A DNA stretch of 64,000 nucleotides from Endomychus coccineus (lineage: Eukaryota; Arthropoda; Insecta; Coleoptera; Endomychidae). Under the pieces are notes generated by a model that saw only the letters and a program-made list of their open reading frames with translations, was not told where the DNA came from and ran no database searches. The stretch covers positions 35,866,581-35,930,580 of the forward strand of contig OY294071.1 of the NCBI GenBank assembly GCA_958510875.1, written 5' to 3'. This document shows, in pieces, positions 3,421 to 62,000 of this stretch. The translations under genes and the position numbers were made by a program. Every line of letters begins with the position of its first letter. The first letter of the stretch is position 1.

Positions 3421-3529
3421 CAAGTAATGGCTGATTCTATTGGATTAATGTATGAATAAAACCATTTGTTTCCAGTTCACTTCTGCCATATAATGGTACG
3501 ATCCCTTTCGTCAAAATCGATCAGTAACA

Positions 3530-3600
3530 TTACAAACTGATAGTTCTAGACAGCTGTTTTGCCCTTTTCATAGATCGCATCAGTAGAACAAGTAAGTGTG
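3530..3600 (-). ncRNA. Hammerhead ribozyme relic with compensated stem I
   Basis: On the minus strand: GTTCTA, CTGATGC, a stem II region, then AAAAC, AGCTGTC and TAGAAC. Inner stem I is GUUCUA/UAGAAC, fully paired. Other copies have GUUCCA/UGGAAC, so both sides of one base pair changed together. The core is damaged (CTGATGC instead of CTGATGA; the GAAA G is lost), so it is probably inactive now. Confidence 0.7.
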
Positions 3601-3781
3601 TAACGTTATTGATGACTACTGATTCTTCTGAAGGTACATATAACCGATATACAGTGTGGTAAAAGATTTTTCGAACTTCCGAAGTTAAACCATTTGAGGG
3701 CAAGATGACGACGCAGTTGAATATTTTTTTTTATGTGTACCTTCAACGGAATGATCGGTCAGTAGCGTTACAAACGTTCTC

Positions 3782-3830
3782 GTTCTACTGATGTGCTGCT
3801 GTATGATAAGCTCGAAATAGCTACCTAAAA
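3782..3830 (+). ncRNA. Hammerhead ribozyme relic
   Basis: GTTCTA, CTGATGT, a stem II region, GAAA, then TAGCTACC and TAAAAC. Inner stem I retains 5 of 6 pairs. The A after CTGATG is lost and stem II is disturbed, so this is a decayed copy. Confidence 0.5.
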
Positions 3831-4168
3831 CTATTAATTTGTAATGTTACTGATCAATGTAGACTAGAGAGACCTTTTTATTAATATCTGACAAGAGCCA
3901 ACTAGAAACGGATAGAAGTATTGATACATTGATTATTATCTCGATTGTTACACTGGTTCGGTTCGAATGGTCCTCAAGTAGTTCAACATTCCACGTAACT
4001 TTGAAAGTTCGACAAATCTATCAGTCGATGTGGTACATTTTTCTACTCCTTAGTGGGGCAACTATTCATAGACAGCGTTAAATAATTTTCTCTTTTTACC
4101 ACGCTGTTTGTCGGTTCTGTATAGTGTATACAACAAGATGGTAGGTCGATTACGTTACAAGCTTTCTG

Positions 4169-4215
4169 GTTCTACTGATGAGCTGTTTGAGAAGAGCGAA
4201 CTATTAGTTTGTAAT
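4169..4215 (+). ncRNA. Truncated hammerhead ribozyme relic
   Basis: GTTCTA and CTGATGA are intact and followed by a GCTG...AGAGC region. The sequence then runs from GAA straight into the CTATTAGTTTG flank, so stem III, the cleavage site and the 3' strand of inner stem I are deleted. Confidence 0.55.
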
Positions 4216-4260
4216 GTTACTGATCTATATCAGAGAGACCTTATCATTGAATACATTGGT

Positions 4261-17612: not shown

Positions 17613-18004
17613 TAAATTCCAATTTTCCCATTATTTACTATAATTAATGATTTACATTTATTCGCCTTGTTCAATGAAATGTATTTTGCTTCGCTCAGCC
17701 CAACTGAACATTGCCAATAACCAGCTCGGAGATATAAAATAGGAATACAAGCTCACATTAGATTCATACAACGATGGATCTGTCATTTAATAATTGACCA
17801 AGTATACTTATGATTGCGAAAGAGAATCTGAGCAAACATTATTCTTGAATATGACACTACTATGCATCACATGATGTATGCAAGAGAAAATCTCAGTCAA
17901 TAACTAGCTCGGATATATAAAATGGGAATACAAGGCAAGTACATTATTAAATCGTATTGTTACTTGATGAGGCCTTTCTAGTTCAGGATCGATCAGTAAC
18001 ATCA

Positions 18005-18070
18005 CAAACTTATCGTTCCAGACAGCTGCTTCTCTCTTCTCATAGAGCTCAGCACTGAAGGATCTCCATT
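18005..18070 (-). ncRNA. Hammerhead ribozyme relic
   Basis: Minus strand: GTGCTGA, GCTC, TATGAGAA, GAGA, GAAGC, AGCTGTC, TGGAAC. Stem III and the 3' strand of stem I are intact. The CTGATGA box has become GTGCTGA and GAAA is altered. Inactive by inference. Confidence 0.6.
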
Positions 18071-18363
18071 GAAGGTTTCATAACCAGCCTTCCACGTGAT
18101 TAACAAACCAAAAAATGTCACGCCACCAATGAATAGATATTTCACTAAGAAATCAAGCAATGTACTACATTGACAGATTCCTCGAACTTTACAAAAGTTA
18201 CGGAAATTGTGGGACTACTTGAGTGCGCCAGATGGCGACGCCAAACTAACACAATATAAGAGAATTAGAAACAAATGAATATTATACTCATTTATCTCAT
18301 GTTGCTTTGGCCAGATAACAATGATAAGGTTTTATAGTCCAGATCGATCAGTAACGTAACAGA

Positions 18364-18424
18364 CTTATAATTGATGACTGATGAGCTCTATGAGAAGAGC
18401 GAAACAGCTGTCTGGAACTATAAG
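18364..18424 (+). ncRNA. Hammerhead ribozyme with intact catalytic core
   Basis: CTGATGA (18378-18384), stem II GCTC/GAGC (18385-18388 and 18397-18400) with loop TATGAGAA, GAAA (18401-18404), palindromic stem III ACAGCTGT, and cleavage triplet GTC (18410-18412). All conserved core bases of a hammerhead are present. The 3' strand of inner stem I is TGGAAC (18413-18418), but the 5' strand is replaced by TGATGA at the junction with the minus-orientation unit. Only the outer helix CTTATA/TATAAG (18364-18369 with 18419-18424) remains. Confidence 0.8.
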
Positions 18425-18830
18425 ATTGTGACGTTAGTGATTTATCTGGACTAGAAAGATCTTATCATTGTTACCTGGCAAAAGCCAACATGAAATACAA
18501 GAGCATATTCATATATTCATTTATTTCTAATTCTCTTATATATTGTTACTTGGTTTGAATTGTAATGTACCTACGTATCACCCTTGCATTGAATTATATC
18601 TAAAACTCTAAAAACCATTAATTTATAAGTAAACTATATAAAATATATAAGTATTATTATATTTACTGACGTAAGCAATTCTATTATTATATTCTAGCGG
18701 ATAATGCACGAAAGGTAAAATTTCAGTTCACTTTGAAACTCTAACCGCACCCATGTCGAAATTTCGAACTGCATTAAGGCTAAAGTAAAAGGGTCAGATT
18801 AATGACCGAGAGCTATTTTTGAAGGTAATT

Positions 18831-20085: not shown

Positions 20086-20415
20086 TTTTGATTCATAGTG
20101 AAGTTCACTCTGATGATTACTTTGGTAGTCGAAAGGTCCTCAATACTTCAGCAACACATTTGGAAAACAAAGAGCTTTTCGGTACATAGTATAAAGAAAT
20201 TTTTAACGTAAATTGAAGTCTTCCATCGATTTTATACACTGTGACACTCTGTATACTTGAATGTTTAAAATAACTGTAATTCGCAACCACATGTCATGAG
20301 CCGAATACACAAGAGATGCAATCTATTAACACATAAATGAAAGCCTCACTGCAAGCTTCTGATTTATACTCAGGATCCGCTTTCTGAGTAAGATTATAAC
20401 CAGATATGCGCTTAC
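20086..20415. other. Intronic non-coding sequence
   Basis: No coding frame seen. It lies directly downstream of the FN3 exon donor site on the minus strand, so it should be intron. Confidence 0.5.
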
Positions 20416-33360: not shown

Positions 33361-34184
33361 ACCCAAATTCAATAGGACTCTGGTACAAAGAGAGTAAGGA
33401 TGGCAAACACTTTCTCCTGCTGGAGGTGGCAATCAAAGACACCTTTTGTCGGTAGAGAAACAGACAACGTGACGTGCTACCTTACTTTATCGGACTCAAT
33501 TTTCCCATACTTATGAAAATCTGCAAGTGGAAATTATTCTATGTGTTCTCGGGAGATTGCTGATGTCAACGGTTGGTATATTAGTCTAGAAAATTATTGT
33601 TTTATCGGGTTATAATCTATGAGAAGACAAGAATTCAGGGTGTCGTAAAGCGGAGAAAAACTTAATCGTCATCTAAGGTTGCAAGTAAAACAGACATATA
33701 ATTTCTCATCCATGAAAACATACTTCAATATTAATTAGATTTATGTGGCAAATGAATCCATATACTTAATTTCCCCCAAACGGTACAAAAGCTTAAGTCG
33801 AAATGAAATATGGCAGAACAGTGTGGGGAGAATCGAGAGCACCAATTCTCCCTAAACGTGATGAGATCACGGAGACCTCTAATGAAAATCGCTTTTATAT
33901 CTAATCATAACACAGGTATTCAGGGAATATTTGCAGAACTTGGAAATTGAAGTACGATGCATAAATTCTATTACTAGGTCGAATTTTATGACGTTGACAC
34001 CTTCTAGTTTTACGTACCCTTATGGGGAAGCGCATAATATACGGATTTATATTCCTCCTCTTGCATTATATTCCATTTGCTCTTCAATACAGAAAAATAC
34101 GCTTGCGTGATCTTACTCATTTGGGAGCTCGGAAAACTCGGCATTCTTTTTGGCGAAATTTCTTGATCTAGGAATTATTAAACA
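33361..34184. other. Non-coding intronic stretch
   Basis: AT-rich. No gene or repeat recognised. Confidence 0.5.
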
Positions 34185-34214
34185 AAGTTTTGGTTCACCA
34201 GGTTGAACAGTTAC

Positions 34215-34275
34215 AACACGTCCTATAGGCAGCTGTTTCGCCCTTCTCATGGGCTCGTCAGTGAGACGAGGCTTA
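34215..34275 (-). ncRNA. Hammerhead-like motif, subfamily 2
   Basis: Minus strand: CTGACGA (34261-34255), stem II GCCC/GGGC with loop ATGAGAA, GAAA, then CAGCTGCC. The core fits CTGANGA...GAAA with a perfect stem II. The cleavage triplet is GCC instead of NUH, and stem I is limited to CGTC/GACG across an internal loop. Probably inactive. Confidence 0.55.
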
Positions 34276-34804
34276 CGTGAAGTCACTGATCAACCTTTCC
34301 GAAAGTGATATAATGAAACACCCTCAAAGTGTTTGGCGAACTTAGAAGTTCCAACATCATCTGCCGAAAAGCAGATGTCCCACAGAGAATGCAAATCATA
34401 ATGCTACGCATTGACAAAAAAGTTCTCGCGATTCAAAGAAACGATGGGAAAACCGTTGTTACTACTGCAGCCAGGTACTGTCCCGCAATAGTGCATAGTA
34501 AATACAAGCACATTACCTGTTTGCGGTCAATAGACAAAGTTTTGGTTCACTAGGTTGAACAGTGGCAAAATATTGTTGTCATTGTTGCGGGATCATCACC
34601 TGACGGCATTTCCAACTGTTTCCCCGTTGATTCTTTTAATCGCGAGAACTTATTTGTCAATGCGTAGCATTGTGAATTACATTCTAAGTGGCACATCTGC
34701 CTCCCAGCAGATGATGTTGGAACTTCTAGGTTCGCTAAACACTTTGAGGATGCTTCATTATATCACTTTCTGAGATGGTTGATCGGTGACTTCACGTCTG
34801 CCTC

Positions 34805-34860
34805 GTATCACTGATGAACCCATGAGAAAGGCGAAACAGCTATCAGAGGCTATAGGACGC
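34805..34860 (+). ncRNA. Hammerhead-like motif, subfamily 2
   Basis: CTGATGA (34811-34817), weak stem II ACCC/AGGC, GAAA (34833-34836), then CAGCTATC with a usable ATC triplet. Stem I is not canonical: only GCCTC/GAGGC, offset by six bases. It is the mirror partner of the motif at 34215-34275. Confidence 0.5.
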
Positions 34861-35065
34861 ATTGTCACTGTTCAATTTGGTGAACCAAATTTCTATTAAC
34901 TGCTAACACTGTTGTATTTCAGATATCTAAAAATTATTCTAGTTCTCTGATACATTATTACATGAATCAGACTCTCCACAATTTTATTGAGTTCTCATAA
35001 TCCCTTCTTTCAATTCTTATTATTGACAAACTATAGCGACATTCAAAAATTAAAGTAGCGATTAC

Positions 35066-35374
35066 CTTGAACGATCAGGCGAACAACCCCATCCGGTTTA
35101 GGCCTGCTGTTAACCAAACACACGTAATCGCCACTATCTTCTGCAAGAGCTGGATGGAAACTCAAGGCGTAATTATCAGAAACGAGTGAAACCCGATGCT
35201 GGTTATCCCAAACTGTGGTGGAGTCACCCATAAATTCCACAAGTTTCACATTATGAGATAAAGAAATCCATTCTAGAGCTAGTACTAGAGAATGTTCGTT
35301 AACTCCTGGACAAGCTAATGATTTGTTCTCACCGGCTTTGATCATGATGCTTTCTACTGAAAGACTTGTTACAT
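35066..35374 (-). CDS. Exon of an Ig/FN3 cell-surface protein: complete Ig domain
   Basis: A 309-bp internal exon, phase 1 on both sides. The acceptor TTTTCCAG ends at 35375 and the donor GTAATC starts at 35065. It encodes 103 residues forming one Ig domain: Cys22 in SLACPG, Trp36 in ALEWISL, and DSGDYVC with Cys86. These are the canonical disulphide and the Tyr corner of an I/V-set fold. It ends PDGVVRLIVQ, the last strand, after which the FN3 exon at 20416-20539 continues in frame. The product should be an extracellular adhesion or guidance receptor. Other exons were not found in the window. Confidence 0.85.
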
Positions 35375-35375
35375 C

Positions 35376-37004
35376 TGGAAAATAAAAATATATAAATGAT
35401 AAATATATAAATATATGGGTCAAGAGCTGAGAAAAGTTCGTTCAAATTTCTAGGGGGCTACAACAAATACAATGCTACATTTTTGTTAGTCATGGGTTAT
35501 TTTCACAGCATCTAAGTGAGATTATTCTATGACAGTAGTAGATTATCCAGCAATGTTCATGAACTGAATAAAAAAGGAAAATGCCGTTGAAATCACAAAA
35601 ATGGAAATCAGGATGCATTGAAAGATGTCATAGGTGCGAGTTTGTCTTATTACGCACATGACAACACAACTATCCAGTACTTCTATTTTCAAGCGCAGCA
35701 GTTCATAAAAACTTTTCCACTTGAGTTATTGTCGTCATTAAAAGGAGGACATATACATAATTCCTAATTTAGTATGCTTCGTTGATGAATACTTGATGGC
35801 TAGAAAGCACTTCACGGTTAACTGAATCCATTGTAGTGGAAAGGATGACAGTGTTTCGCTAATGAAACTCATTATTCAGCAAGTACCTAAGCATAAAAGA
35901 CTCCGGGCAAAATTTTGTTTCGAAGTATATTTTTGAAAACTGATAGAATTAACGTACTTTGATGTACATGCACTTTGCAGATTTACAATTTTTAATTAAA
36001 AGTTGGAAATTTTTTACTCGCTGATTAATTTCGAGTACTAAATATGCATCGAAGAAGTTAATGAAAGTTGTTCGTATAAGATGGGCTAAGTCAGATGCTA
36101 TGAGGGTTTAACGCTACCTCTAGTTCATTTCAGAATTGAACAGTTATTAAACAGCTTTGTATTATTTATAACACTCAACAATTCCATTTTAATCCCCAAG
36201 GAAGGTTTTATAAATCCTAATTTTTCTGAGCAGTGCGCAACGAACGTTACCTTTTAGGGAAGAATAATTCAGTTGTTTTAATCTATTCTTAAGACTTATT
36301 TCGACTTTTTCCTACAGAGTAATATAAAAACAAACTAAAAAGCGGGAAACATCACATCTGTAAATACATCTTCTCTCAAGAAGTTGTAAAAACAGTTCTT
36401 AACACTTTCTTTTGATGATCTACGTTTTTTGTTTGATGGTTGTAGTTTTTCTAGTTTATGTGAGGTTTTATCATCATTGTTGGGCTTAAGTTGCAAAAAA
36501 CAACCCTCTGGCTGTTCGCTTCGAAGTAACTATAATTTCTTTATCCACTCGAGAATATAATTTCCTAGATACTGCCGTAGTTGTCTCCTTGATACTTCAC
36601 CTCAATCTCACTAAAGAGAGTTCGATAATGTACTGTATTTTAAATAATCGATCTACTAAACTTGTGCTTACATTGAATAAGTGATTCTGAAGAGGTCGTT
36701 TTACTATTTTAAGTAACAAAATTAATTCTAAACTAATAATGCTATATACAACCTGTTCTTTTAGGACGGTCAGAGATTTTCACTATATTTTATTATCCTC
36801 TCCTTGCATAATTGGTATTATTTATCGACCAGTACGATCTAATGTACAGTAATATCTATATTATGACAGTCCTATAGGAATTATTCGTTCTTAATCTAAA
36901 TTTCTCACTTCCCCCAGATTGGCATTCTTAATAGAATCTGACAGATTTTTTCGGATTATTGTGTGGAACGTTCTGGAAGAATGTTATCAGCGATATGGCT
37001 TTTC
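35376..37004. other. Non-coding stretch, probably upstream intron of the Ig/FN3 gene
   Basis: AT-rich. No coding block recognised. Begins directly at the polypyrimidine tract of the Ig exon acceptor on the minus strand. Confidence 0.5.
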
Positions 37005-37026
37005 TATTCCAGATCGATCAGTAACG

Positions 37027-37095
37027 TCACAAAACTATAGTTCCAGACAGCTGTTCCGCACTTCTCATAGAGCTCATCAGTGGAATGCCTCAGCT
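37027..37095 (-). ncRNA. Hammerhead ribozyme relic
   Basis: Minus strand: ATTCCA, CTGATGA (37080-37074), GCTC, TATGAGAA, GTGC, GGAAC, AGCTGTC, TGGAAC (37045-37040). Inner stem I has 5 of 6 pairs. Stem II has one mismatch and GAAA has become GGAA. Nearly intact, but probably inactive. Confidence 0.65.
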
Positions 37096-37177
37096 TCCCC
37101 ATTTGTTCCTAAGATTTTTTGCTTTTTTTATCTTGTGGAAGGCTGGTTATGACTACCTTCAACCCTTCAGTAACATT

Positions 37178-37241
37178 GCCAACTTGCTCGTTCCACTGAT
37201 GAGAGGGAAGAGCTAAGCAGGTGTCTGAGACTACAGGTTTG
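37178..37241 (+). ncRNA. Hammerhead ribozyme relic, stem II deleted
   Basis: GTTCCA and CTGATGA are intact (37190-37202). Stem II and GAAA are scrambled (GAGGGAAGAGCTAAGC), followed by AGGTGTC and TGAGAC. Recognisable by flanks and order only. Confidence 0.5.
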
Positions 37242-37310
37242 TGACTTTACTGATCGATCTGGACTAGAAAGACCTTATGATTGTTATCTGACAAAAGCCA
37301 ACGTGAGATA

Positions 37311-37499
37311 AATGAGTATTCAAAACTTCAATGGTGGAAGACATTATATGTATGATTGAAATTGGATAATGAGGTAGAGTTAATATTGTGATAAGGGAAT
37401 TTCAATGCGGAGGTATACTAGGAAGGCACAAGAGGATTATTATTTTACTGATTATAAGCAAAATTTATGGAGAAGTTCTGTCTAGTCAAATAATTATAA
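37311..37499. other. Short spacer
   Basis: AT-rich, nothing recognised. Confidence 0.4.
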
Positions 37500-41351: not shown

Positions 41352-44300
41352 TATCCACAGTCACATCGACGTGATGAATTTTGGAGTTAAATTGTATAAA
41401 TAGGCAGTATCTGATCTCTATCCATAGTTCCGGCAGTCAGTCATGACCTTAAACTGGGATCGACCTAATTTGGATTGATTTGGAGTGAAATTCAATAATG
41501 AGGCAGTGTTTGATCCATATTCACAGTCCCGGTAGTCAGATATGACCTCAAACTGAGATCGGATTGATGAATTTCGAATAAAATTAAATAATTATGCATT
41601 ATCTGATCACTATTCACAGTTCCGGTAGTCAGTCCTGACCTGGAACTAGGATCAACGTGATGAATTTTGGAGTATAATTGAATAATGAGGCAGTATCTGA
41701 TCGCTATCCACAGTCAGTCATGACCTTAAACTGGGATGAACCTGATGAATTTGGAATAAAACTGAACAATGAGGCATTGTCTGATCACTATTCATAGTCC
41801 TGTTAGTTATCCTGATTTCAAACTAGAATCGACGTGATGAATTTTGGAGTATATTTGAATAATGAGGCAGTGTCTGATCGCTATCCACAGTCAGTCATGA
41901 CCTTAAACTGGGATGAACCTGATGAATTTGGAATTAAATTGAATAATGAGGCATTAACTGATCACTATTTACAGTCCCGGTAGTTATCCTGATCTCAATC
42001 TAGAATCGACGTGATGAATTTTGGAGTGAAAGTGAATAATGAGGCAATATCTGATCGCTATCCACAGTCAGTCATGATCTTAAACTGGGTTGTACCTGAT
42101 GAATTTGGAATAAAATTGAATGATGAGGCATTGTCTGATCACTATTCACAGTCCCGGTAGTTATCCTGATCTCAAACTAGGATCGACGTGATGAATTTTG
42201 AAGTAAAAGTGAATAATGAGGCATTATCTGATCACTACACACAGTCAGTCATGATCTTAAACTGGGTTGTACCTGATGAATTTGGAATAAAATTGAATAA
42301 TGAGGCATTGTCTGATCACTATTCACAGTCCCGGTAGTGATCCTGATCTCAAACAAGGATCGACGTGATGGATTTTGGAGTAAAAGTGAATAATGAGGCA
42401 GTATCTGATCGCTACCCACAGTCAGTCATGATCTTAAACTGGGTTGTACCTGATGGATTTGGAATAAAATTGAATAATGAGGCATTGTCTGATCACTATT
42501 CACAGTCCCCGTAGTTATCCTGATCTCAAACTAGTATCGACGTGATGACTGTTGGAGTAAAAGTGAATAATGAGGCAATATCTGATCGCTATCCACAGTC
42601 AGTCATGATCTTAAACTGGGTTGTACCTGATGAATTTGGAATAAAATTGAAAGATGAGGCATTCTCTGATCACTATTCACAGTCCCGGTAGTTATCCTGA
42701 TCTCAAACTAGGATCGACGTGATGAATTTTGGAGTAAAAGTGAATAATGAGGCAATATCTGATCGCTATTCACAGTCAGTCATGATCTTAAACTGGGTTG
42801 TACCTGATGAATTTGGAATAAAATTGAATAATGAGGCATTGTCTGATCACTATTCACATTCCCGGTAGTTATCCTGATCTCAAACAAGGATCGACGTGAT
42901 GGATTTTGGAGTAAAAGTTAATAATGAGGCAATATCTGATCGCTATCCACAGTCAGTCATGATCTTAAACTGGGTTGAACCTGATGAATTTGGAATAAAA
43001 TTGAACAATGAGGCATTGTCTGATCACTATCCACAGTCCCGGTAGTTATCCTGATCTCAAACTATGATCAGCGTGATGAATTTTGGAGTAAAAGTGAATA
43101 ATGAGACAATATCTGATCGCTATCCAGAGTCAGTAATGATCTTAAACTGATTTGAACCTGATGAATTTGGAATAAAACTGAACAATGAGGCATTGTCTAA
43201 TCACTATTCACAGTCCCGGTAGTTATCCTGATTCCAAACTAGAATCGACGGTATGAATTTTGGAGTATGATTGAATAATGAGGCAGTGTCTGATCGCCAT
43301 CCACAGTCCCGGTAGTTATCCTGATCTCAAACTAGGAGCGGCGTGATGAATTTTGGAATAAAAGTGAATAATGAGGCAATATCTGATCGCTATCCACAGT
43401 CAGTCATGATCTTAAACTGAGTTGAACCTGATGAATTTGGAATAAAACTGAACAATGAGGCATTGTCTAATCACTATTCACAGTCCCGGTAGTTATCCTG
43501 ATTTCAAACTAGAATCGACGTGATGAATTTTGGAGTATGATTGAATAATGAGGCAGTGTCTGATCGCCATCCACAGTCAGTCATGACCTCAAACTGGGCT
43601 GAACCTGATGAATTTGGAATAAAATTGAATAATGAGGCATTGTCTGATCACTATTCACAGTCCCGGTAGTTATCCTGATCTCAAACTAGGATCGACGTGA
43701 TGAATTTTGGAGTAAAAGTGAATAATGAGGCAGTATCTGATCGCTATCCATAGTCAGTCATGATCTTAAAATGGGTTGTACCTGATGGATTTGGAATGAA
43801 ATTGAATAATGAGGCATTGTCTGATCACTATTCACAGTCCCGGTAGTTATCCTGATCTCAAACTAGGATCGACGTGATGAATGTTGGAGTAAAAGTGAAT
43901 AATGAGGCAATATCTGACCGCTATCCACAGTCAGTCATGATCTTAAACTGGGTTGTACCTGGTGAATTTGGGATAAAATTGAATGATGAGGCATTGTCTG
44001 ATCACTATTCACAGTCCCGGTAGTTATCCTGATCTCAAACTAGGATCGACGTGATGAATTTTGGAGTAAAAGTGAATAATGAGGCAATATCTGATCGCTA
44101 TCCACAGTCAGTCATGATCTTAAACTGGGTTGTACCTGATGAATTTGGAATAAAATTGAATAATGAGGCATTGTCTGATCACCATTCACAGTCCCGGTAG
44201 TTATCCTGATCTCAAACTAGGATCGACGTGATGAATTTTGGAGTAAAAGTGAATAATGAGGCAATATCTGATCGCTATCCACAGTCAGTCATGATCTTAA

Positions 44301-45224
44301 ACTGGGTTGTACCTGATGGATTTGGAATAAAATTGAATAATGAGGCATTGTCTGATCACTATTCACAGTCCCGGTAGTTATCCTGATCTCAAACTAGGAT
44401 CGACGTGATGAATTTTGGAGTAAAAGTGAATAATGAGGCAATATCTGATTGCTATCCACAGTCAGTCATGATCTTAAACTGAGTTGAACCTGATGAATTT
44501 GGAATAAAATTGAATAATGAGACATTGTCTGATCACTATCCACAGTCCCGGTAGTTATCCTAATCTCCAACTATGATCGGCGTGATGAATCTTGGAGTAA
44601 AAGTGAATAATGAGGTAATATCTGATCGCTATCCACAGTCAGTCATGACCTTAAACTGGGAAGAACCTGATGAATTCGGAATAAAACTGAACAATGAGGC
44701 ATTGTCTGATCACTATTGACAGTCCCGGTAGTTATCCTGATCTCAAACTAGGATCGACGTGATGAATTTTGGAGTAAAAGTGAATAATGAGGCAATATCT
44801 GATCTCTATCCACTGTCAGTCATGATCTTAAACTGGGTTGAACCTGATGAATTTGGAATAAAATTAGATAATGAGGCATTGTCTTATCACTATTCACAGT
44901 CCCGGTAGTTATCCTGATCTCAAACTGAGATCGACGCTATCCACAGTTCTGATAGTCAGTCATGACCTTAAACTGGGAATAGTGAGACAGTGTTTGATGA
45001 CTATCCACAGTTCCGGTAGTCAGTCATGACCTTAAACTGGGAATAGTGGGACAGTGTCTGATGACTATTCACAGGTCCGGTAGTCAGTCATGACCTAAAA
45101 TTAGAATGAATCTGATGAATTTGGAGTGAAATTGAATTATGAGACAATGTCTGATCCGTATCCACAGTGCCGGTAGTCAGGTTGACCTCAAACTAGGATC
45201 GACATATTGAAATTGAAGTAAAAT
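41352..45224. repeat. 177-bp dimeric satellite array, about 22 units
   Basis: The landmark GACGTGATGAATTTTGGAG recurs at 41831, 42008, 42185, 42362, 42539 and 42716, an exact 177-bp step. Each unit is a dimer of related halves of about 94 and 83 bp. The longer half contains TCCCGGTAGT between CACAG and the GACC/GATCT stretch; the shorter lacks about 11 bases there (CACAGTCAGTCATG). At both edges (41.35-41.72 and 44.93-45.22 kb) the units are monomeric or irregular and more diverged, as expected of an array homogenised in its centre. No coding capacity. Confidence 0.95.
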
Positions 45225-47044: not shown

Positions 47045-47345
47045 ATAAAAGACTTTCACACTGTGGATATATTATAACACTATTGATAAGAAATAAGCAC
47101 CCTTATCCACTAAAATTGCTATTAAAGTACTGAGGACCTTTCGGCTACCAAGTAGCCATCATCAGAGTAAACTAAATTATAAATCAAAATGTGCCTGTTT
47201 AAATACTATTACCCACAAATAGTATTTAAACAGGCACACACACTACATGGTAGCCAAAAGGTCCTCAATACCTCAATAGTATATTTAGTAAATAAGGATG
47301 ATTATTTCTTATCAATAGTCTAATTGCTTATTGTTAAACTATAGC
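47045..47345. mobile_element. Near-palindromic foldback element, about 300 bp
   Basis: Arms 47045-47210 and 47215-47345 are inverted. The centre is TAGTATTTAAACAGGCAC with its mirror. The arms carry TTATCCACTAAAATTGCTAT / TAGTATATTTAGTAAATAAG and TTGATAAGAAATAA / TTATTTCTTATCAA. The left arm holds the complete hairpin CGGCTACCAAGTAGCC; the right arm has lost about 35 bases next to it. Confidence 0.85.
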
Positions 47346-48520: not shown

Positions 48521-49479
48521 GAATATGCCCTTTCATTTTAAACCTCTGAATAAGATCCTGGCTCAGAATCATAATTCATTTTATTGTTGCATTATTTTTG
48601 TGGTTTCACTCGATCTATTATTTCATTTCATAAATCAATCAGCTAATGGATTAATTGAGAGCTTCCGAGAGACGAAGAGCACATAATAATGAATGGAGAA
48701 TAGATATTTCCCAAAGTCGATGTCAAAAACAAGTGAAATGTTGTTCTGTGTAAGAATGAGATTCTGTTGCATAAGCAATTGTTGGCCAAATAAATATGGA
48801 TGCAGTATTTTAAGAATAGCGCTTAGGAAATAACATTGAAACTGCTGCGGAAGCAACATATATTATGGAGACAAATAGCCGTAGAAGAAAGACTAAGTGA
48901 AACAGTGGACTGAAATAGGTGGGAGCCAAGAAATGTGTGGAATTAGTCTCGAATATAGCCAATGAAAAGAGGATCTAGGATGCGCCAAAACTCGCATAAC
49001 CCGTCGGATCTCAAATAAATATACCTCACACTCGGATGCGCGATTCCTTTCCCTCTGTTTAATACCAGTTTCTCATCTTTTTATCCGGCTTGATAACGTA
49101 TACCTTACTGTAAGCAACGCCAGGGGGCACTGCCGTCACACTACCGTTCCTAAATAATTAATTACCACCTATTATTCCAGGGATTCGCGTTATCATGACG
49201 AAAACCCCAAACAAAACTTTCAGCGAGAAACATTTCAATAAATTATTAACTTATATATAGCTTCCTTTCAGCGACTGCATACTGGTCACCGAAATGCGCT
49301 TTGCGCACATAAATTCTGGTTTAACAACAACGTGATAAAATGTTAGCAATATTTTCACTTACGGAACCAAAATACGTCAGAGAAATAAATTTTGCTGATA
49401 CATCTATGTCTTTTATATATGGGTAAATACATAGATGTATTAACAAATTTTATTTTTCTGGCGTATTTTGGTTTAGTAA
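48521..49479. other. Non-coding stretch
   Basis: AT-rich, no gene recognised. Confidence 0.45.
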
Positions 49480-50487
49480 GCCAAAATATGTTAACATTTT
49501 ATCACGGCATAATCTTAAAATCAGTTTCAAATCACAAAGTAAAATCTGCCATCTTATATATAATGCTAAAGACAAAACCAATGAATATAGTAAGCTTGGA
49601 GATGAAAAACTAATTTGCCCAGACTGTGATTACTTTTATATATGTAGAACTTGTCGTAATTTTAAACTCAGATACCAAGGACATTTCGTAGACTCAACCT
49701 TTCCTAACCATTATATTTTGACTACACGAGAGCGAAACCTATAATGTTTGAAGAACATCGTGTGAGCCAGCGGTGTAATGATGGTAATGATGGGAGAGGA
49801 GATGAGCATTCGAATTTTCTTGAAGGTTCAGAGGTTATAGGCATAAGGGAAGACCTCACTAGGTAAAAAGTTCCACAACTTCGCTGTTCGAAAGAAAGAT
49901 GAAGTCTGGTAGGAAGAAGTTCGGCAGGTCTCGAGCTTGACATTGAAGGAGTGACTAGTGTGTGTAAAAACGGACGAGATTTCTCATGACCACCGACCAT
50001 AGAAATATCTATAGAAAGGGAAGAGATCTCCCACCTTTCTACGATGTTTTAGAGAGGTCAATGAACTCGTAAGTGTGACATCACTGATCAAACGAATAGC
50101 TTTCTTCTGGATAGAATCCAAGAGCTTCATCTTATGTTAGAGACCGAACTTCAAATATGTGAACATTACTCCAGGATAGGTCAAATCTGTGCTTTGTAGA
50201 TTACGAGGAGCTGCTGGGATGTGAAAGTTCTTGGTTCGGAGTAGAAAACCAAGTTTTTATGAAGTAGCTTTCGCAATGATCGTCCCAAAGGTTATAACTT
50301 GCCTAATTTATATAACCTAAACATTTCACAAAGTCAAACCAAAGATTTCTAATTAAATACATTGGAATCAATAGAGACTTATAAAGGTGTCAAAGACTCC
50401 TATAACAATATCCCAAATGATCAGTTAGACCTATACCAAAGTGATCTTTTCCTTTGTCTTCCAAAGCACTCTTCGAATAATTCTTAG
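49480..50487 (+). pseudogene. Penelope-like element: GIY-YIG endonuclease relic, split by an X1 insertion
   Basis: The frame leading into 49722 reads 'VNILSRHNLKISFKSQSKI', 'LIYNAKDKTNEYSKLGDEK' and 'LICPDCDYFYICRTCRNFKL' followed by RYQGHF. This is the linker and GIY-YIG endonuclease of Penelope-like elements, whose usual form is 'GIYKL.CPDC..YYIGQTGR.FK.RY.EH'. Here GIY is DEK and YIG is YIC. After the inserted X1 piece (49726-50285) the frame resumes as 'LNTLESIETYKGVKDSYNN' and IPNDQLDLYQSDLF, the block that follows the endonuclease in these elements. Ends at TAG 50485-50487. The reverse transcriptase part was not found upstream. Endonuclease key residues are damaged, so it is inactive. 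Confidence 0.7.
49726..50285 (-). pseudogene. X1 LINE 3' fragment inserted in a Penelope-like relic
   Basis: Minus-strand copy of the X1 end. The tail complement (GACTACACGAGAG then AACATCGTGTGAGCCAGCGG) starts at 49728. The body contains the 'RTKLWNSLPS' and 'HPF' region, the conserved FHGR block, and ends near 'FLLRTKNF' at about 50280. 5' truncated, as usual for LINE insertions. Confidence 0.8.
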
Positions 50488-55880: not shown

Positions 55881-55892
55881 AATCAAAGAATG

Positions 55893-55960
55893 CAAGCTTC
55901 CCCGTTCCACTGATGTAGTCTATAAGAAGAGCGAAACAGCTGTCTGGAACTATAAGTTTG
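55893..55960 (+). ncRNA. Hammerhead ribozyme, stem I complete, core lesion
   Basis: The outer stem I CAAGCTT (55893-55899) pairs with AAGTTTG (55954-55960) including one G-U. The inner stem I GTTCCA (55904-55909) pairs with TGGAAC (55945-55950). GAAA (55933-55936), palindrome ACAGCTGT and GTC cleavage triplet are intact. The box reads CTGATGT (last A lost) and stem II is weak. Confidence 0.75.
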
Positions 55961-56253
55961 AAGTCAGTGATCGATCTGGGCTAGGTAGACCTGATCATTG
56001 TTATCTGGCCAACATTATTTTCATTTGCTCCTAATTCTCTTACATTGGTCTGATCTCGCCAACTGGCGCACTCAAGTAGTTTCGCATTCCCTGTAACTTT
56101 TGTAAAGTTCGAGAAATCTGTCAATGTGGTACGTTACTTGATTTCTTAGTGGTGGGACATCTATCTATTCATAGATGTAGTGAGATATTTTGTTCTTTTC
56201 ACCACGTTGGGCGTCAGTTATTATTACCTTCAACAGAGACGTAAGTAACGTTG

Positions 56254-56321
56254 CAAACTTGCTCGTTCCACTGATCAGCTCTATGAGAGTAGCGAAACAG
56301 CTATCTGGAACTATAAGTTTG
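56254..56321 (+). ncRNA. Hammerhead ribozyme, best-preserved overall fold
   Basis: Outer stem I CAAACTT (56254-56260) pairs perfectly with AAGTTTG (56315-56321). An internal loop GCTC/TAT separates it from inner stem I GTTCCA (56265-56270) with TGGAAC (56306-56311). The box is CTGATCA (56271-56277, a single G-to-C change), stem II is GCT/AGC, GAAA lies at 56294-56297, followed by CAGCT and the ATC triplet. A two-part stem I with an internal loop is what natural type I hammerheads use for loop-loop contact. Confidence 0.8.
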
Positions 56322-56413
56322 TGACGTTACTGATCGATCTGGACTAGAAAGACAGTATCATTATTACCAAAGAATGGTGTTTGATTGATTCCATATTACC
56401 AAATCCATACTAA

Positions 56414-57814: not shown

Positions 57815-59362
57815 CATTCAAACCTGGTCGGGGCTGCTGCGAGCTCCGACGACATCGCGGCAGTCGCGCCAGAAAAACCTAAAAAGGCGGTTAATCGAAG
57901 CTACTCCTCCCAACCGGTCGGTAAGTAGCTTCAGGTTCCTAAATCGTGTGCCCTGAGTATTCTAATTGAACCCAGAATGACTGCCTTTTGCATCCGGTCT
58001 ATCAAGATCTGCGCCGAGTTCCTACAGGCCGGAATGATGCCGGGAGCAGCTAAGTTTTTGGTACCGACAAGAGCTTGTCGGACCTCATCCTCGCTGACTG
58101 CCTCACACACTTCTGTTTGCTGAAGTTGACGTTCAGCGCAAAACATTTCGAAGTGTGCTCAGGCTGGAGTGTCTAGGTGAATTGGACGCGGTGACTCATA
58201 CACTCCTTTCCAGAACTGCTCAACCTCCTCCACAGTCAGTGGAGCAGCAATTGTGGGCGGTGGAGATTCAAAAAGCCGAGACGGGCTATCGCGAAACAAG
58301 GAATTCTCTCTGATGCGGCTAACCCGTTTGGCCAGATTTCTCCTTACCACGCCCAGGACTCAAATCATATCCGCACAATGTTGCTTGATGGTCGACAACA
58401 CTGTACGTTTTAGTGTGTGATGGTGGCGGTGCAGTTTGGCGGCTATACGCCTAATTTTTGGCGTGAAAGCCCTGCCGCTAGAAATAAAATCCATCACACA
58501 CTGGATCCGAGACGCTTGCTGCCTCGCCGACTGAATTTTGGCCTCGACTTTGTGTAGGGTCCGTTTGGTTTTCTCAATCTGGTCGTGCGGCCTCTCACTC
58601 CGCACTTCCGGAACGAGTCGCTTTGCGGCACCATACACGGCCTCGTTGATTTCCCAGAGGTCGGCGAATTCCGGAAGCTTCTCGTTAATCAACGTGTCCA
58701 ATTCTACCAGCTCGTGTGGTCGTACGGAGACCCTGATATTGATTCGGGTTCTCCTAGTTCTAAGATCAACTTCTGTGTTTTGGAGCAGGCTTGCTCTACC
58801 AGATCTGTTGCGACGCATCACAGGTGGTGCTGGTGCGGCTAGATCCGGTTCTGGTGCTGCAGTCTGCCGGAGATTCGTTCTTATATAGCCGGTTCTACGC
58901 AGGTAGAATACTTGATTCCGCAAGGTTTGTGCGGAAAAGTCACGGCATAGAGGATGCATGATGCGCCAAAGTGCATGCAGCCAGGACATGCATCCCCTAC
59001 GGGCCGGCTCGCTGCGCTCGAAGCAGTCCAGCAAGTCATCTCGAAGTTCATTAGTCCACTCAGAGCGTCCATGTACATTGCGGTGGTCGTCAACTTCGGG
59101 TCCGTCCTTTTGGGCCCCACCCACCTGTCCCTGCTCCTCATCCGACGAGGAGCTGATGTGGGAGGCCAATCTTCTGCTGCCCGTAACAAAAGATGTACCC
59201 TCTGCTGGGTTGTTAGCCCAGCATCGGGACGGCATCGGTATTGAGTGAGGTTACCGAGGCGATGTAACCCCGACTTCTTATCGAGGTTGTCCCCTCTACG
59301 CTCGGATATGTGGTGGCGCTACTCACCAGTGAGCAAACCGAGATCTGTTCAACCCTGCATAC
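57815..59362 (-). pseudogene. R4/Dong-like LINE, internally deleted copy (minus strand)
   Basis: Begins on the minus strand after a (TA)n tract. The 291-codon frame 59235-58360 is the N-terminal part: 'WTNELRDDLLDCFERSEPAR', then 'SWLHALWRIMHPLCRDFSA' and LRNQVFYLRRTGYIRTNLR, a hydrophobic/tryptophan pattern I take to be the DNA-binding N-terminus. A TGA at 58357-58359 and another at about 58147-58149 interrupt an otherwise continuous frame that goes on with 'RRNLAKRVSRIRENSLF' and 'LTVEEVEQFWKGVYESP', then VRQALVGTKNLAAPG (the start of the RT domain). There it jumps directly to IIPACRNSAQILIDRMQKAV, the extreme C-terminus, so RT and endonuclease are deleted. The 3' UTR and poly(A) (as T11 at 57816) match the plus-strand copy. 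Confidence 0.8.
58030..58045 (-). other. Deletion junction in the R4-like copy
   Basis: The sequence GCCCGGCATCATTCCGG region joins the RT-start motif (...LAAPG) to the C-terminal peptide (IIPAC...). The plus-strand copy has ATCATTCCGGCCTGTA at 61910, so the junction shows short homology consistent with deletion during or after integration. Confidence 0.65.

Positions 59363-59402
<40 letters not shown>
59363..59402. repeat. (TA)n microsatellite 1
   Basis: About 40 bp of alternating TA at the 5' end of the minus-strand R4-like copy. Confidence 0.9.
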
Positions 59403-59404
<2 letters not shown>

Positions 59405-59536
59405 GAACTGGATTCTCGGGTATTGATCCGCGTTGTCTGGTTTCGGTCCTCAAACGGACCAATTTCACGACGTTTCGGCAAAGTCGCATTTGCCATCTTC
59501 AGGTGATTCGACCGTAGAGTCTGGAAAATCTAGGCG

Positions 59537-59540: not shown

Positions 59541-59580
<40 letters not shown>
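59541..59580. repeat. (TA)n microsatellite 2
   Basis: About 40 bp of alternating TA. Confidence 0.9.
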
Positions 59581-59581
<1 letters not shown>

Positions 59582-59673
59582 CTGCTTCAGGTTTCCGCGG
59601 GCGTTGTATGCTGTATTAGGTTGCCGGGATATACTCCGCGTTGTCGTAGATTGGTTTCGATAGAAACCGTTGA

Positions 59674-59718
59674 TATGACGACGTTTCGGCACAATCTCAT
59701 GTGCCATCTTCAGGTCTT
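59674..59718 (-). ncRNA. Hammerhead-like motif, class 2 (left arm)
   Basis: Minus strand: GAC, CTGAAGA, T, GGCACA, TGAGAT, TGTGCC, GAAA, CGTC, GTC. Stem II 6 of 6 pairs. Stem I GAC/GTC 3 pairs. Confidence 0.45.
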
Positions 59719-59878
59719 CTCTTCAGGTCTTCTCTTCAGGGCTGCTGCCAACAAACTCAATCAGACGCATCAAACCGGCAAAATCATCCAGATGTAACAA
59801 GGATACATAAAACACCAACAGGATCAACGGAGATCAGTTTCAAGTTAACTCGAAGCAGAGCAGCAGCCCTGAAGAGAA

Positions 59879-59918
59879 GACCTGAAGATGGCACATGAGC
59901 TTGTGCCGAAACGTCGTC
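59879..59918 (+). ncRNA. Hammerhead-like motif, class 2 (right arm)
   Basis: GAC (59879-59881), CTGAAGA (59882-59888), stem II GGCACA/TGTGCC, GAAA (59908-59911), CGTC, GTC (59916-59918). Mirror copy of the left arm, differing by one loop base. Confidence 0.45.
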
Positions 59919-59983
59919 ATATCAACGGTTTCTATCGAAACCAATCTACGACAACGCGGAGTATATCCCGGCAACCTAATACA

Positions 59984-59985
<2 letters not shown>

Positions 59986-60058: not shown

Positions 60059-62000
60059 TCAGGACTCTATACTCTACAAGCGCAACCTTTCCATGGCCTG
60101 GATTGACTACCGCAAGGCATTTGATTCAACATCACATGAGCTATTATTATACTTGCTCCAATGCCTTGCGGTACCTACCCCACTAGTGAGATGCATAGAA
60201 CATCTGTTGCTACTCTGGAAGACCCGTTTTGCCATCACATCAGGCACACGACGAGTCTTGACAGAGTTGGTAACATTCAAGAGGGGAGTTTTCCGATGAG
60301 ACTCCTTGAGTCCCCTCTTGTTCAATATCTCACTGCTGCCACTCTCCATTGCTTTAAGACGGACTCGTGGAAATTACTCTGGACCACCGAACGACCGGAG
60401 GCATCAGATCACCCATTTATTTTACGTGGATGAATTGAAACTGTATGCCTCTGGGGAGAAGAACCTCCATCAATCTCTCAATGTGGTTCAGGAATATACA
60501 CGAGCCGTAGGCATGGAGTTGGGATTGGACAAATGCGCAGTGTTTCATTTGAGGAGAGGACGATCTCCGGAAGTGTACGAGAATATGCAGCTTGCCGACG
60601 GAAGCATCTTCAAACACCTCGATGCTGGAGAGACCTATCGATACCTGGGAATTGAACAGCGTCCTAATTATGACGCTTCCCAGGTAAAGGTGGCTCTCCG
60701 CGGCAAATACAGAAACCTTGTTCGAAAGATTTGGTCTTCCGAACTTTCGAGTGGGAACAAGGTGTCTGCAACAAATATGCTTGCCGTTCCAGTCCTGCTC
60801 CACTCTTTTGGAGTGGTGAAATGGACGGTCGATGAGCTGCATAGACTCGATAAAGACACCCGGAAAATGATGCATATCCATCACAGTTTGCATCCTAGAT
60901 CGTCCGTTTCCCGCATTTATCTCCCACGTCATCGGGGAGGTAGGGGACTCCTCAGTCTGGAGGGTCTGCAACGAAGTGTGGTTCTGAGTATAGCTTGTAA
61001 AGTTCATAGGAGCTCGGACCCCCTCCTGTGCCATGTTAAAAGTCACGAATTGGCCGGAGTGGGGGCATTTATCGTTAAGGCAGCACAAAAAGCTGCGGAA
61101 GAACTTGGTCTCGAATTTCAGATCAGTCGAGAAGGCCGACTAGAGGGCAACCTCGAGCTCCTACCTTCTCGCCTGAAAGCCCAGATAAATGCCGCGGAGC
61201 AAGATCTTACGCTCAGGCGGCATGTTGACAAGCCGATACACGGTGTTTTCTATCGAAACATCGAAACGCTCGGCTTGTCAACTAGGCTGACCTTCGGCTA
61301 CCTAAGGTCAGCCGGGCTTACATCCGAGACTGAGGGATTTACCGCAGCTTGCCAAGATGGCGTAATTAAAACCTTGGTCTATCGCCGCAATGTGATGGGT
61401 GTGCAGGTCCCTGATGTCAGCTGCAGGGCCTGTCGAAAGGCGCCTGAGACGCTTTTCCACCTTCTGTCGGCATGTCCGGCAAAAGCGGCCTCGGCGTACA
61501 CCCATCGCCATAATGCGGCCCTACGGGTGCTGTATCACCATCTAAGGCACTCGTACGGAATAGACCAAGAGCCGGTGCTGCCTTACATGCCAGGAGATAT
61601 TGAGTCCGTTGTCGGAAACGAAAAATGCCAGATCTTCTGGAATTATTCGTTTCCGACCGTCAGGTCCATACAAGCAAATAGGCCTGACGTTGTCCTCCTC
61701 GATAAACTAATCAAGACTATGTATGTCATCGAATTCTCCGCTCCGGCAGAGAAGAACATAGTCTTGAAAGAGGAGGAAAAATGGACAAAATATCAAGATC
61801 TCCTGTTCGAGCTCGGCACGCTATACCCAGGCCACAAGGTCGTATTAGTGGTTCTGATCATCGGTGTTTTGGGCGGAATTCTGTCTTCGCTGCGTTCAAA
61901 CTTGAAGATCATTCCGGCCTGTAAGAACTCGGCGCAGATCTTGATAGACCGGATGCAAAAGGCAGTCATTCAATTAGAATACTTAGGGCACACGATTTAG
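60056..62000 (+). pseudogene. R4/Dong-like LINE: RT and restriction-like endonuclease, 5' truncated
   Basis: The element starts at the (TA)n edge just before RT motif A, 'MAWIDYRKAFDSTSHEL' (catalytic Asp). After an in-frame TGA at 60297-60299 where motif B should read QGDSLSP, a 564-codon frame continues: 'SLSPLLFNISLLPLSIAL', motif C 'HLFYVDELKLYAS' (YVDE; the second Asp of YxDD is Glu), 'VGMELGLDKCAVFHLRRG', thumb 'YRYLGIEQRPNYD', then near the C-terminus the zinc motif CRACRKAPETLFHLLSAC (C-x2-C-x8-H-x4-C). The PD-(D/E)xK type endonuclease follows, with RPDVVLLDK, 'MYVIEFSAPAEKN' and KEEEKWTKYQDLLFE. That domain set and order marks LINEs that nick target DNA with a restriction-like endonuclease. 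Clade assignment to R4/Dong is from motif resemblance. A 7-bp deletion near the end shifts the last residues relative to the minus copy. Confidence 0.85.

Follow-up and report, generated by a model that had tools for sequence, protein, structure and literature searches.

Locus E, an insertion in the window (the whole 64,000-nucleotide, or 64-kb, stretch of DNA that was analyzed), is by its sequence a decayed metazoan-type non-LTR retrozyme insertion, of a kind that probably spread by Penelope-type priming from both sides of the target. At a broader level, animal retrozymes probably parasitize the Penelope machinery, such that a circular RNA would be integrated from a staggered break at two fixed sites, and the same rule would hold in autonomous Penelope elements. 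The insertion record provides structural evidence on which enzyme mobilizes animal retrozymes, and also informs how Penelope elements integrate.

Structure of the locus E insertion

The original prediction described this site as tandem 361-bp repeats, each with a type I hammerhead ribozyme. Two hammerhead-like units do lie 361 nt apart and are 84% alike over 70 nt, but they do not make up two complete repeats, as the repeated part covers only ~115 nt (55891-56003 vs. 56252-56366; Table 1). The GAAA and the expected stem III sequence (CAGCTGTC or CAGCTATC) preceding TGGAAC were located in both units, and each unit carries the single core lesion ascribed to it, namely CTGATGT in copy 1 (55910-55916) and CTGATCA in copy 2 (56271-56277) instead of CTGATGA. 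Stem I was present as described, but proved longer, with an additional outer helix GTAACGTTGC/GTGACGTTAC. A 9-bp duplication (9/9 positions, equalled by 0.7% of random window pairs) flanks the entire feature, which therefore reads as a single insertion. Circular folding of the locus E unit was no more stable than that of shuffled sequences (z = -0.08), and two other units were more stable than shuffles (z = -2.94 and -2.79).

Table 1 Retrozyme loci of the window and the Penelope-like pair used as a yardstick (positions counted from the first letter of the window)
Feature	Position	Strand	Description
Locus A, family 1	3444-4253	.	Inverted hammerhead unit, then hammerhead-body-hammerhead; duplication not found
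Locus B, left duplication TATTGTTACTTG	17955-17966	+	12/12 with 18541-18552
Locus B, family 1	17967-18540	.	Head-to-head; S end (+54) on the minus arm, T end (+128) on the plus arm
Locus B, right duplication TATTGTTACTTG	18541-18552	+	12/12 with 17955-17966
Locus C, family 2	34180-34924	.	Head-to-head; hammerhead differs from that of family 1 (CTGATGA, CTGACGA)
Locus D, family 1	36992-37330	.	Head-to-head; duplication not found
Locus E, left target-site duplication CAAAGAATG	55884-55892	+	9/9 identical to 56368-56376
Locus E, family-1 retrozyme insertion	55893-56367	+	475 nt long, ~1.3 of the 361-nt units in direct partial tandem
Locus E, hammerhead copy 1	55893-55960 (homology from 55891)	+	Predicted cut after 55944
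Locus E, single-copy body, non-coding	56004-56240	+	~240 nt, between the repeated parts
Locus E, hammerhead copy 2	56252-56321	+	Predicted cut after 56305
Locus E, 3' part beyond the predicted cut	56306-56367	+	Short (S) end at ~+62
Locus E, right target-site duplication CAAAGAATG	56368-56376	+	Pairs with 55884-55892
Young Penelope-like head-to-head pair, yardstick	59579-59985	.	Minimal hammerhead-like motif; 97.6% identical over 127 nt

Two retrozyme families in the genome

Blastn within the window recovered family-1 units at three further places and a different hammerhead unit at a fourth, giving four family-1 loci (A, B, D, and E) and one family-2 locus (C). These five loci have a GC content of 0.36-0.43, under the limit of ~45-50% for metazoan non-LTR retrozymes, and the search for a reverse transcriptase or GIY-YIG frame in them found no frame above 54 codons, the longest M-to-stop frames being 15-54 codons. 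We further searched the 906-Mb genome with locus E, a direct locus, as the family-1 query. The best 40 of 3426 first-look candidates were scored, and 38 fetched loci together with the four window loci made up a sample of 42, all selected by similarity to locus E. For family 2, the best 40 of 2609 candidates were scored and 24 loci were read; the query was an inverted locus, which favors inverted loci in the sample. Hit spacing gives a unit length of ~355-406 nt. A family-2 retrozyme was also observed in a longer array with ~370-bp spacing (G000 C2:75384983-75387646). Despite some longer arrays, the reading as a plain satellite was rejected, because the copies are scattered and target duplications flank many of them. 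A hammerhead pattern scan found no match in viral contigs and one in genome contigs, in a bacterial MAG contig binned as Solobacterium (L001:7802-7837).

The covariance-model search, proposed as a check on the hammerhead, counted against it, in that no Rfam hammerhead reached its gathering score in the 64-kb window or in 19 further loci. Hammerhead_HH9 (RF02275) resembles both locus E units in aligning with them end to end, including the internal loop of stem I, but the scores of 24.1 and 23.1 bits (E = 0.0017 and 0.0036 in an 801-nt stretch) lie below its gathering score of 52, and on the full 64 kb just one locus E unit was listed (E = 0.29). Homology to family 1 exceeded chance for nine hammerhead units of the window and for 68 full-length units counted across the 42 family-1 loci. 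Seven of these 68 have an intact core (examples in L011, L018, and L046), in line with the expectation that such copies would exist elsewhere in the genome. The consensus of 53 aligned family-1 units is, as anticipated from the two copies of locus E, a perfect type I hammerhead with CTGATGA, GAAA, and a GTC site. Its stem III has two base pairs capped by the palindromic loop AGCT, and its stem I contains an internal loop and continues into a long outer helix. Since the family consensus is perfect and the copies are ~10% off it, locus E is, judging by its sequence, an old, decayed copy of a metazoan-type retrozyme. The core diverges from the consensus by 9.1% (12 columns) vs. 10.3% (125 columns) for the rest; it thus decays at about the same rate, which indicates old copies without visible selection. 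Together with the target duplications, the number of copies, and the lack of any frame above 54 codons, the intact consensus bears out the proposal of a non-autonomous, ribozyme-carrying retroelement family.

Stem substitutions had been expected to respect base pairing. The pairs of family 1 do hold in 86.4% of cells (32-40% when the pairing is slid), but covariation within the family shows no excess over shuffles, and the expectation was not borne out. Such a lack would be expected for copies of one master; covariation was not used as support. By eye, a C-G to T-A double change is seen in stem I at locus A, and a double change in stem II distinguishes family 1 from family 2 in the window loci.

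Head-to-head insertions and target duplications

By best-match strand, 26 of the 42 family-1 loci are head-to-head (minus then plus, 3' ends outward), 16 are one-way, and none is tail-to-tail. Family 2 gave 13 head-to-head loci out of 24, again with none tail-to-tail. A second inverted copy in L071, ~600 nt to the left, was left out of the counts. The original prediction overlooked this inverted arrangement and therefore also the link to Penelope-type integration. Where readable, duplications are 9-14 bp long in both families. A duplication score of at least 12 was reached in 7/42 family-1 loci vs. 0.17 expected from cross-pairing of flanks between loci, and in 6/24 family-2 loci vs. 0.48 expected (longest, 14 bp), with the apparent duplication of L088, one of these six, consisting of element sequence. 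The seven family-1 duplications are 12-13 bp long, and six of them surround the two arms of an inverted pair, which means that such a pair is one insertion. In L026, which was classed as direct, the sequence within the 13-bp duplication starts with an 11-nt piece of an inverted long end. The flanks of locus C match at 12/14 positions, a weak agreement equalled by 10% of random pairs.

Two preferred 3' ends

Most outer 3' ends fall at one of two sites, a short one (S, ~55 nt beyond the ribozyme cut) and a long one (T). We measured ends in the ten loci with the best duplications, two of which are one-way (L026 and locus E). In each of the eight inverted loci, the shorter end is 44-60 nt and the longer 90-137 nt beyond the predicted cut (left/right: L019, 59/127; L021, 60/90; L045, 54/111; L046, 127/44; L015, 52/137; locus B, 54/128; L016, 126/57; L023, 117/51), and the long ends stop at one sequence, TTTCTAATTCTCTTA, or nearby. 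The cut position of the short arm of L019 was extrapolated because this arm has only ~33 nt. These measurements bear on whether the loci might instead be foldback or MITE-like DNA transposons with hammerheads in their inverted arms, a reading that would accommodate the inverted arms, the target duplications, and the lack of coding capacity. However, the termini are asymmetric, one end being 30-85 nt longer than the other in the eight measured loci, the arms range from 33 to 658 nt, and direct tandems exist, all of which makes a DNA transposon extremely improbable.

An end profile of 267 positions, built from 20 internal units that run past both sites, placed the short ends of family 1 at 40-68 and the long ends at 107-144, mostly 125-134, with four ends outside both clusters (L031, 29; L028, 83; L027, 166; L040, 199). 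One S and one T end were found in 20 of the 23 readable inverted family-1 loci, or in 18 if a long end is required to lie at 125 or beyond (P = 6e-5 for at least 20 of 22 at one half); L018, L034, and L036, each with one unreadable end, were excluded. The exceptions were L022 and L024 (both S/S) and L028 (83/S), and no T/T locus occurred among the 23. Within the window, locus A has a long left end (+97 to +105) and a short right end (+54 to +58), and locus D a short left end (+61 by two references, +43 by a third) and a long right end (+70 to +105); in the profile, the long ends of both, at 107-108, fall short of the main cluster. In family 2, 11 of 13 inverted loci have one short and one long end, ~40 nt apart. 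Here the exceptions were L085, which is T/T with an 11-of-12 duplication, and the window locus (L067), which is S/S by homology; the long end of L090 lies at 67, and the others at 79-89.

The pattern of ends and arms also bears on two other accounts of the head-to-head form. An ordinary metazoan retrozyme might have been moved by a LINE; the inverted arms would then stem from twin priming or 5' inversion, and the two ends would be a matter of chance. The 9-14 bp duplications are indeed LINE-like, and the available text of PMC4918200 likens 15-bp duplications of Nematostella repeats to LINEs. In most inverted loci of the sample, however, the arms overlap and both include the ribozyme, and their ends coincide with the two preferred sites, usually a different site for each arm. 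From a single linear RNA, twin priming yields non-overlapping arms and a single 3' end. The overlapping arms and the two ends contrast with that product, and we regard LINE mobilization as unlikely. Alternatively, mobilization could be of the Penelope type with the inverted arm made by self-priming, through cDNA fold-back or an antisense template, which is how the available text of PMC3846280 accounts for head-to-head Penelope copies. The long stem I would offer a natural fold-back point, and the arms of locus B, which keeps an intact core in its plus unit (18378), join at the hammerhead. In many loci, though, the arms meet far from stem I, and self-priming alone leaves the stop of the second end at the other fixed site unexplained; we consider it an unlikely source of the inverted arms.

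Penelope-like elements of the same genome as yardsticks

In a genome search for GIY-YIG, 150 of 4625 candidates were scored and all exceeded the cut-off, with open frames of up to 858 aa; tandem copies recur every 3161 bp, and minus-then-plus pairs are common. In the first host Penelope-like family, six selected short inverted pairs are 98.5-100% identical to the tandem copy L066, and all six loci end once at L066 position ~1129 and once at ~1161, leaving a tail of ~32 nt. A minimal hammerhead-like motif ends at L066:1049, and the two ends lie ~75-80 and 107-112 nt beyond its cut, with (TA)n blurring a few nt. In the second host family, the two ends are ~40 nt apart and occur once each in all three pairs for which both arms were retrieved. 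Over the two families, 9/9 examined host Penelope-like inverted pairs thus had one short and one long end. The young pair in the window behaves likewise, with a short end at +70 (59985), a long end at +101 (59579), and a 31-nt tail, both ends running into (TA)n. A third arm related to this pair was noted at 59395-59510. Both host families examined lie in (TA)n, which makes their duplications unreadable, whereas retrozymes as a rule do not. The retrozymes are older than the two young host Penelope-like families.

The first host family, which is very young and has 842-aa open frames, occurs as 3161-bp tandems and inverted pairs (G000 C2:101091184-101104027, C1:163562360-163568033). Among the best 120 of 229 relatives of the 842-aa protein, the closest named ones come from the beetles Coccinella and Diabrotica, with Harmonia and Cylas ranking lower, and mosquito, sea urchin, bdelloid rotifers, and tick are also among the matches listed. 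Many of these 120 carry RVT_1, PF26215, or PF28514, and some GIY-YIG. The beetle relatives, along with an Ig-like exon in the window, make the insect host of the original prediction probable, most likely a beetle. An hmmscan of the whole 842-aa frame returned no Pfam family at E 0.01, though the genome search put GIY-YIG above the cut-off there.

The shared integration architecture could also mean that the unit is a Penelope-derived fragment, with deleted pLTRs, rather than an independent retrozyme, and the available portion of PMC11722881 does propose that retrozymes derive from Penelope elements. Against such an origin, the hammerhead of the retrozymes is canonical, its stem III ending in a tetraloop and its stem I being long, in place of the minimal motif of the host Penelope elements examined, and comparison of their 3' region with the first host Penelope-like family and with the window pair revealed no convincing similarity. 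A Penelope fragment is accordingly quite improbable.

Other features of the window

We also observed a satellite array at 41365-44936 (fitted periods of 93, 177, and 447 bp) and a tandem array at 1963-2782 (166 bp, 4.9 copies, 96% matches). A strong palindrome at 47129-47269 scored mir-2513 below gathering, and like sequence is found near 20110 and 39958, which suggests a putative MITE-like family. An Ig-like exon at 35046-35378 (minus strand) matched Pfam I-set and Ig_3 below the cut-off and gave weak PDB matches. At 60300-61997, slightly downstream of an (AT)35 run, a 566-aa open frame has an RVT_1 match, and a 296-aa open stretch on the opposite strand (58363-59250) matched no family significantly. 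Visual inspection had suggested a reverse-transcriptase/endonuclease remnant at 49427-49741, but neither Pfam nor a protein search supported it, and it was rejected.

Proposed mechanism of integration

Because the retrozymes share the Penelope 'tail' architecture, a Penelope-type enzyme most likely mobilizes them, as far as insertion sequences can indicate. Hammerheads would cut the transcripts, and the monomer would be circularized. A Penelope-type reverse transcriptase may then cut both target strands 9-14 bp apart, with cDNA primed from each side, one at S and the other at T. The two cDNAs would travel along a probably circular RNA, sometimes for more than one lap, and joining of their ends would leave the arms head-to-head, each with its 3' end pointing outward. 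A circular template would account for arms longer than one unit and for overlapping arms with starts 40-70 nt apart, and two linear multimers would do so equally.

Biochemical precedent comes from PAc of Anolis (PMC11167929), in which the purified Penelope protein cut the two strands, extended them, and initiated at two internal positions of the RNA, the tail being the stretch that separates these positions. Its most frequent start is found at 111-118 nt in a frame that has the hammerhead cut at 26, and thus, by our subtraction, ~85-92 nt beyond the cut. In the same study, hammerhead mutants still inserted, unprocessed RNA seemed to be the main substrate, and start sites were equal between strands; these results do not favor a required circle or a strict one-S-one-T division. 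Also speaking against the proposed reading are the Rfam scores below gathering, the covariation at shuffle level, the (TA)n setting of the two host Penelope families, the lack of 3' similarity to the first of them and to the window pair, and the longer family-1 tail. The partner would probably be an older Penelope family with AT-rich targets in general and duplications of 12-14 bp. The one-S-one-T rule comes from observations in one genome. The head-to-head, one-short-one-long rule is countable in any genome and testable with the published purified Anolis Penelope protein.

Comparison with known systems

Metazoan retrozymes were defined by Cervera and de la Pena (2020), and the available text of that paper (PMC7229834) terms Penelope-like elements 'a strong candidate' for their mobilization on account of type I hammerheads, tandem copies, and co-existence. 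The present loci agree with the non-LTR retrozymes described there in having a type I hammerhead (here as the consensus) in each non-coding, low-GC unit of ~170-400 nt, in tandem or partial tandem arrangement, and duplications of more than 4 bp. The head-to-head majority and the two 3' sites of family 1 are not mentioned in that text. Inverted or tailed retrozymes were likewise not found in the literature covered, which included the available parts of PMC7761336, PMC4918200, PMC11722881, and PMC8969392, with preprints and most subscription papers outside its scope. The head-to-head form and the S/T end rule, both shared with Penelope-like elements of the same genome, thus appear to be new here.

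The plant LTR retrozymes are similarly non-autonomous, with two hammerheads flanking a unit, but, according to the available text of PMC4918200, have type III hammerheads, LTRs, PBS, PPT, and 4-bp duplications. The resemblance to Penelope-like elements extends to direct plus inverted units, the head-to-head form, a one-sided tail, duplications, and a hammerhead upstream of the 3' end (PMC11167929 and the available text of PMC3846280). In Adineta vaga, the latter describes direct plus inverted pLTRs, 8-10-bp duplications, and an optional 31-bp tail on one inverted pLTR. The retrozymes differ from these elements in lacking a reverse transcriptase or GIY-YIG frame at the five window loci, in their canonical rather than minimal hammerhead, in their duplications of 9-14 bp, and in the longer family-1 tail (~70 nt vs. 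31 to ~40 nt), while sharing with them the head-to-head and direct units and the tail on one side.
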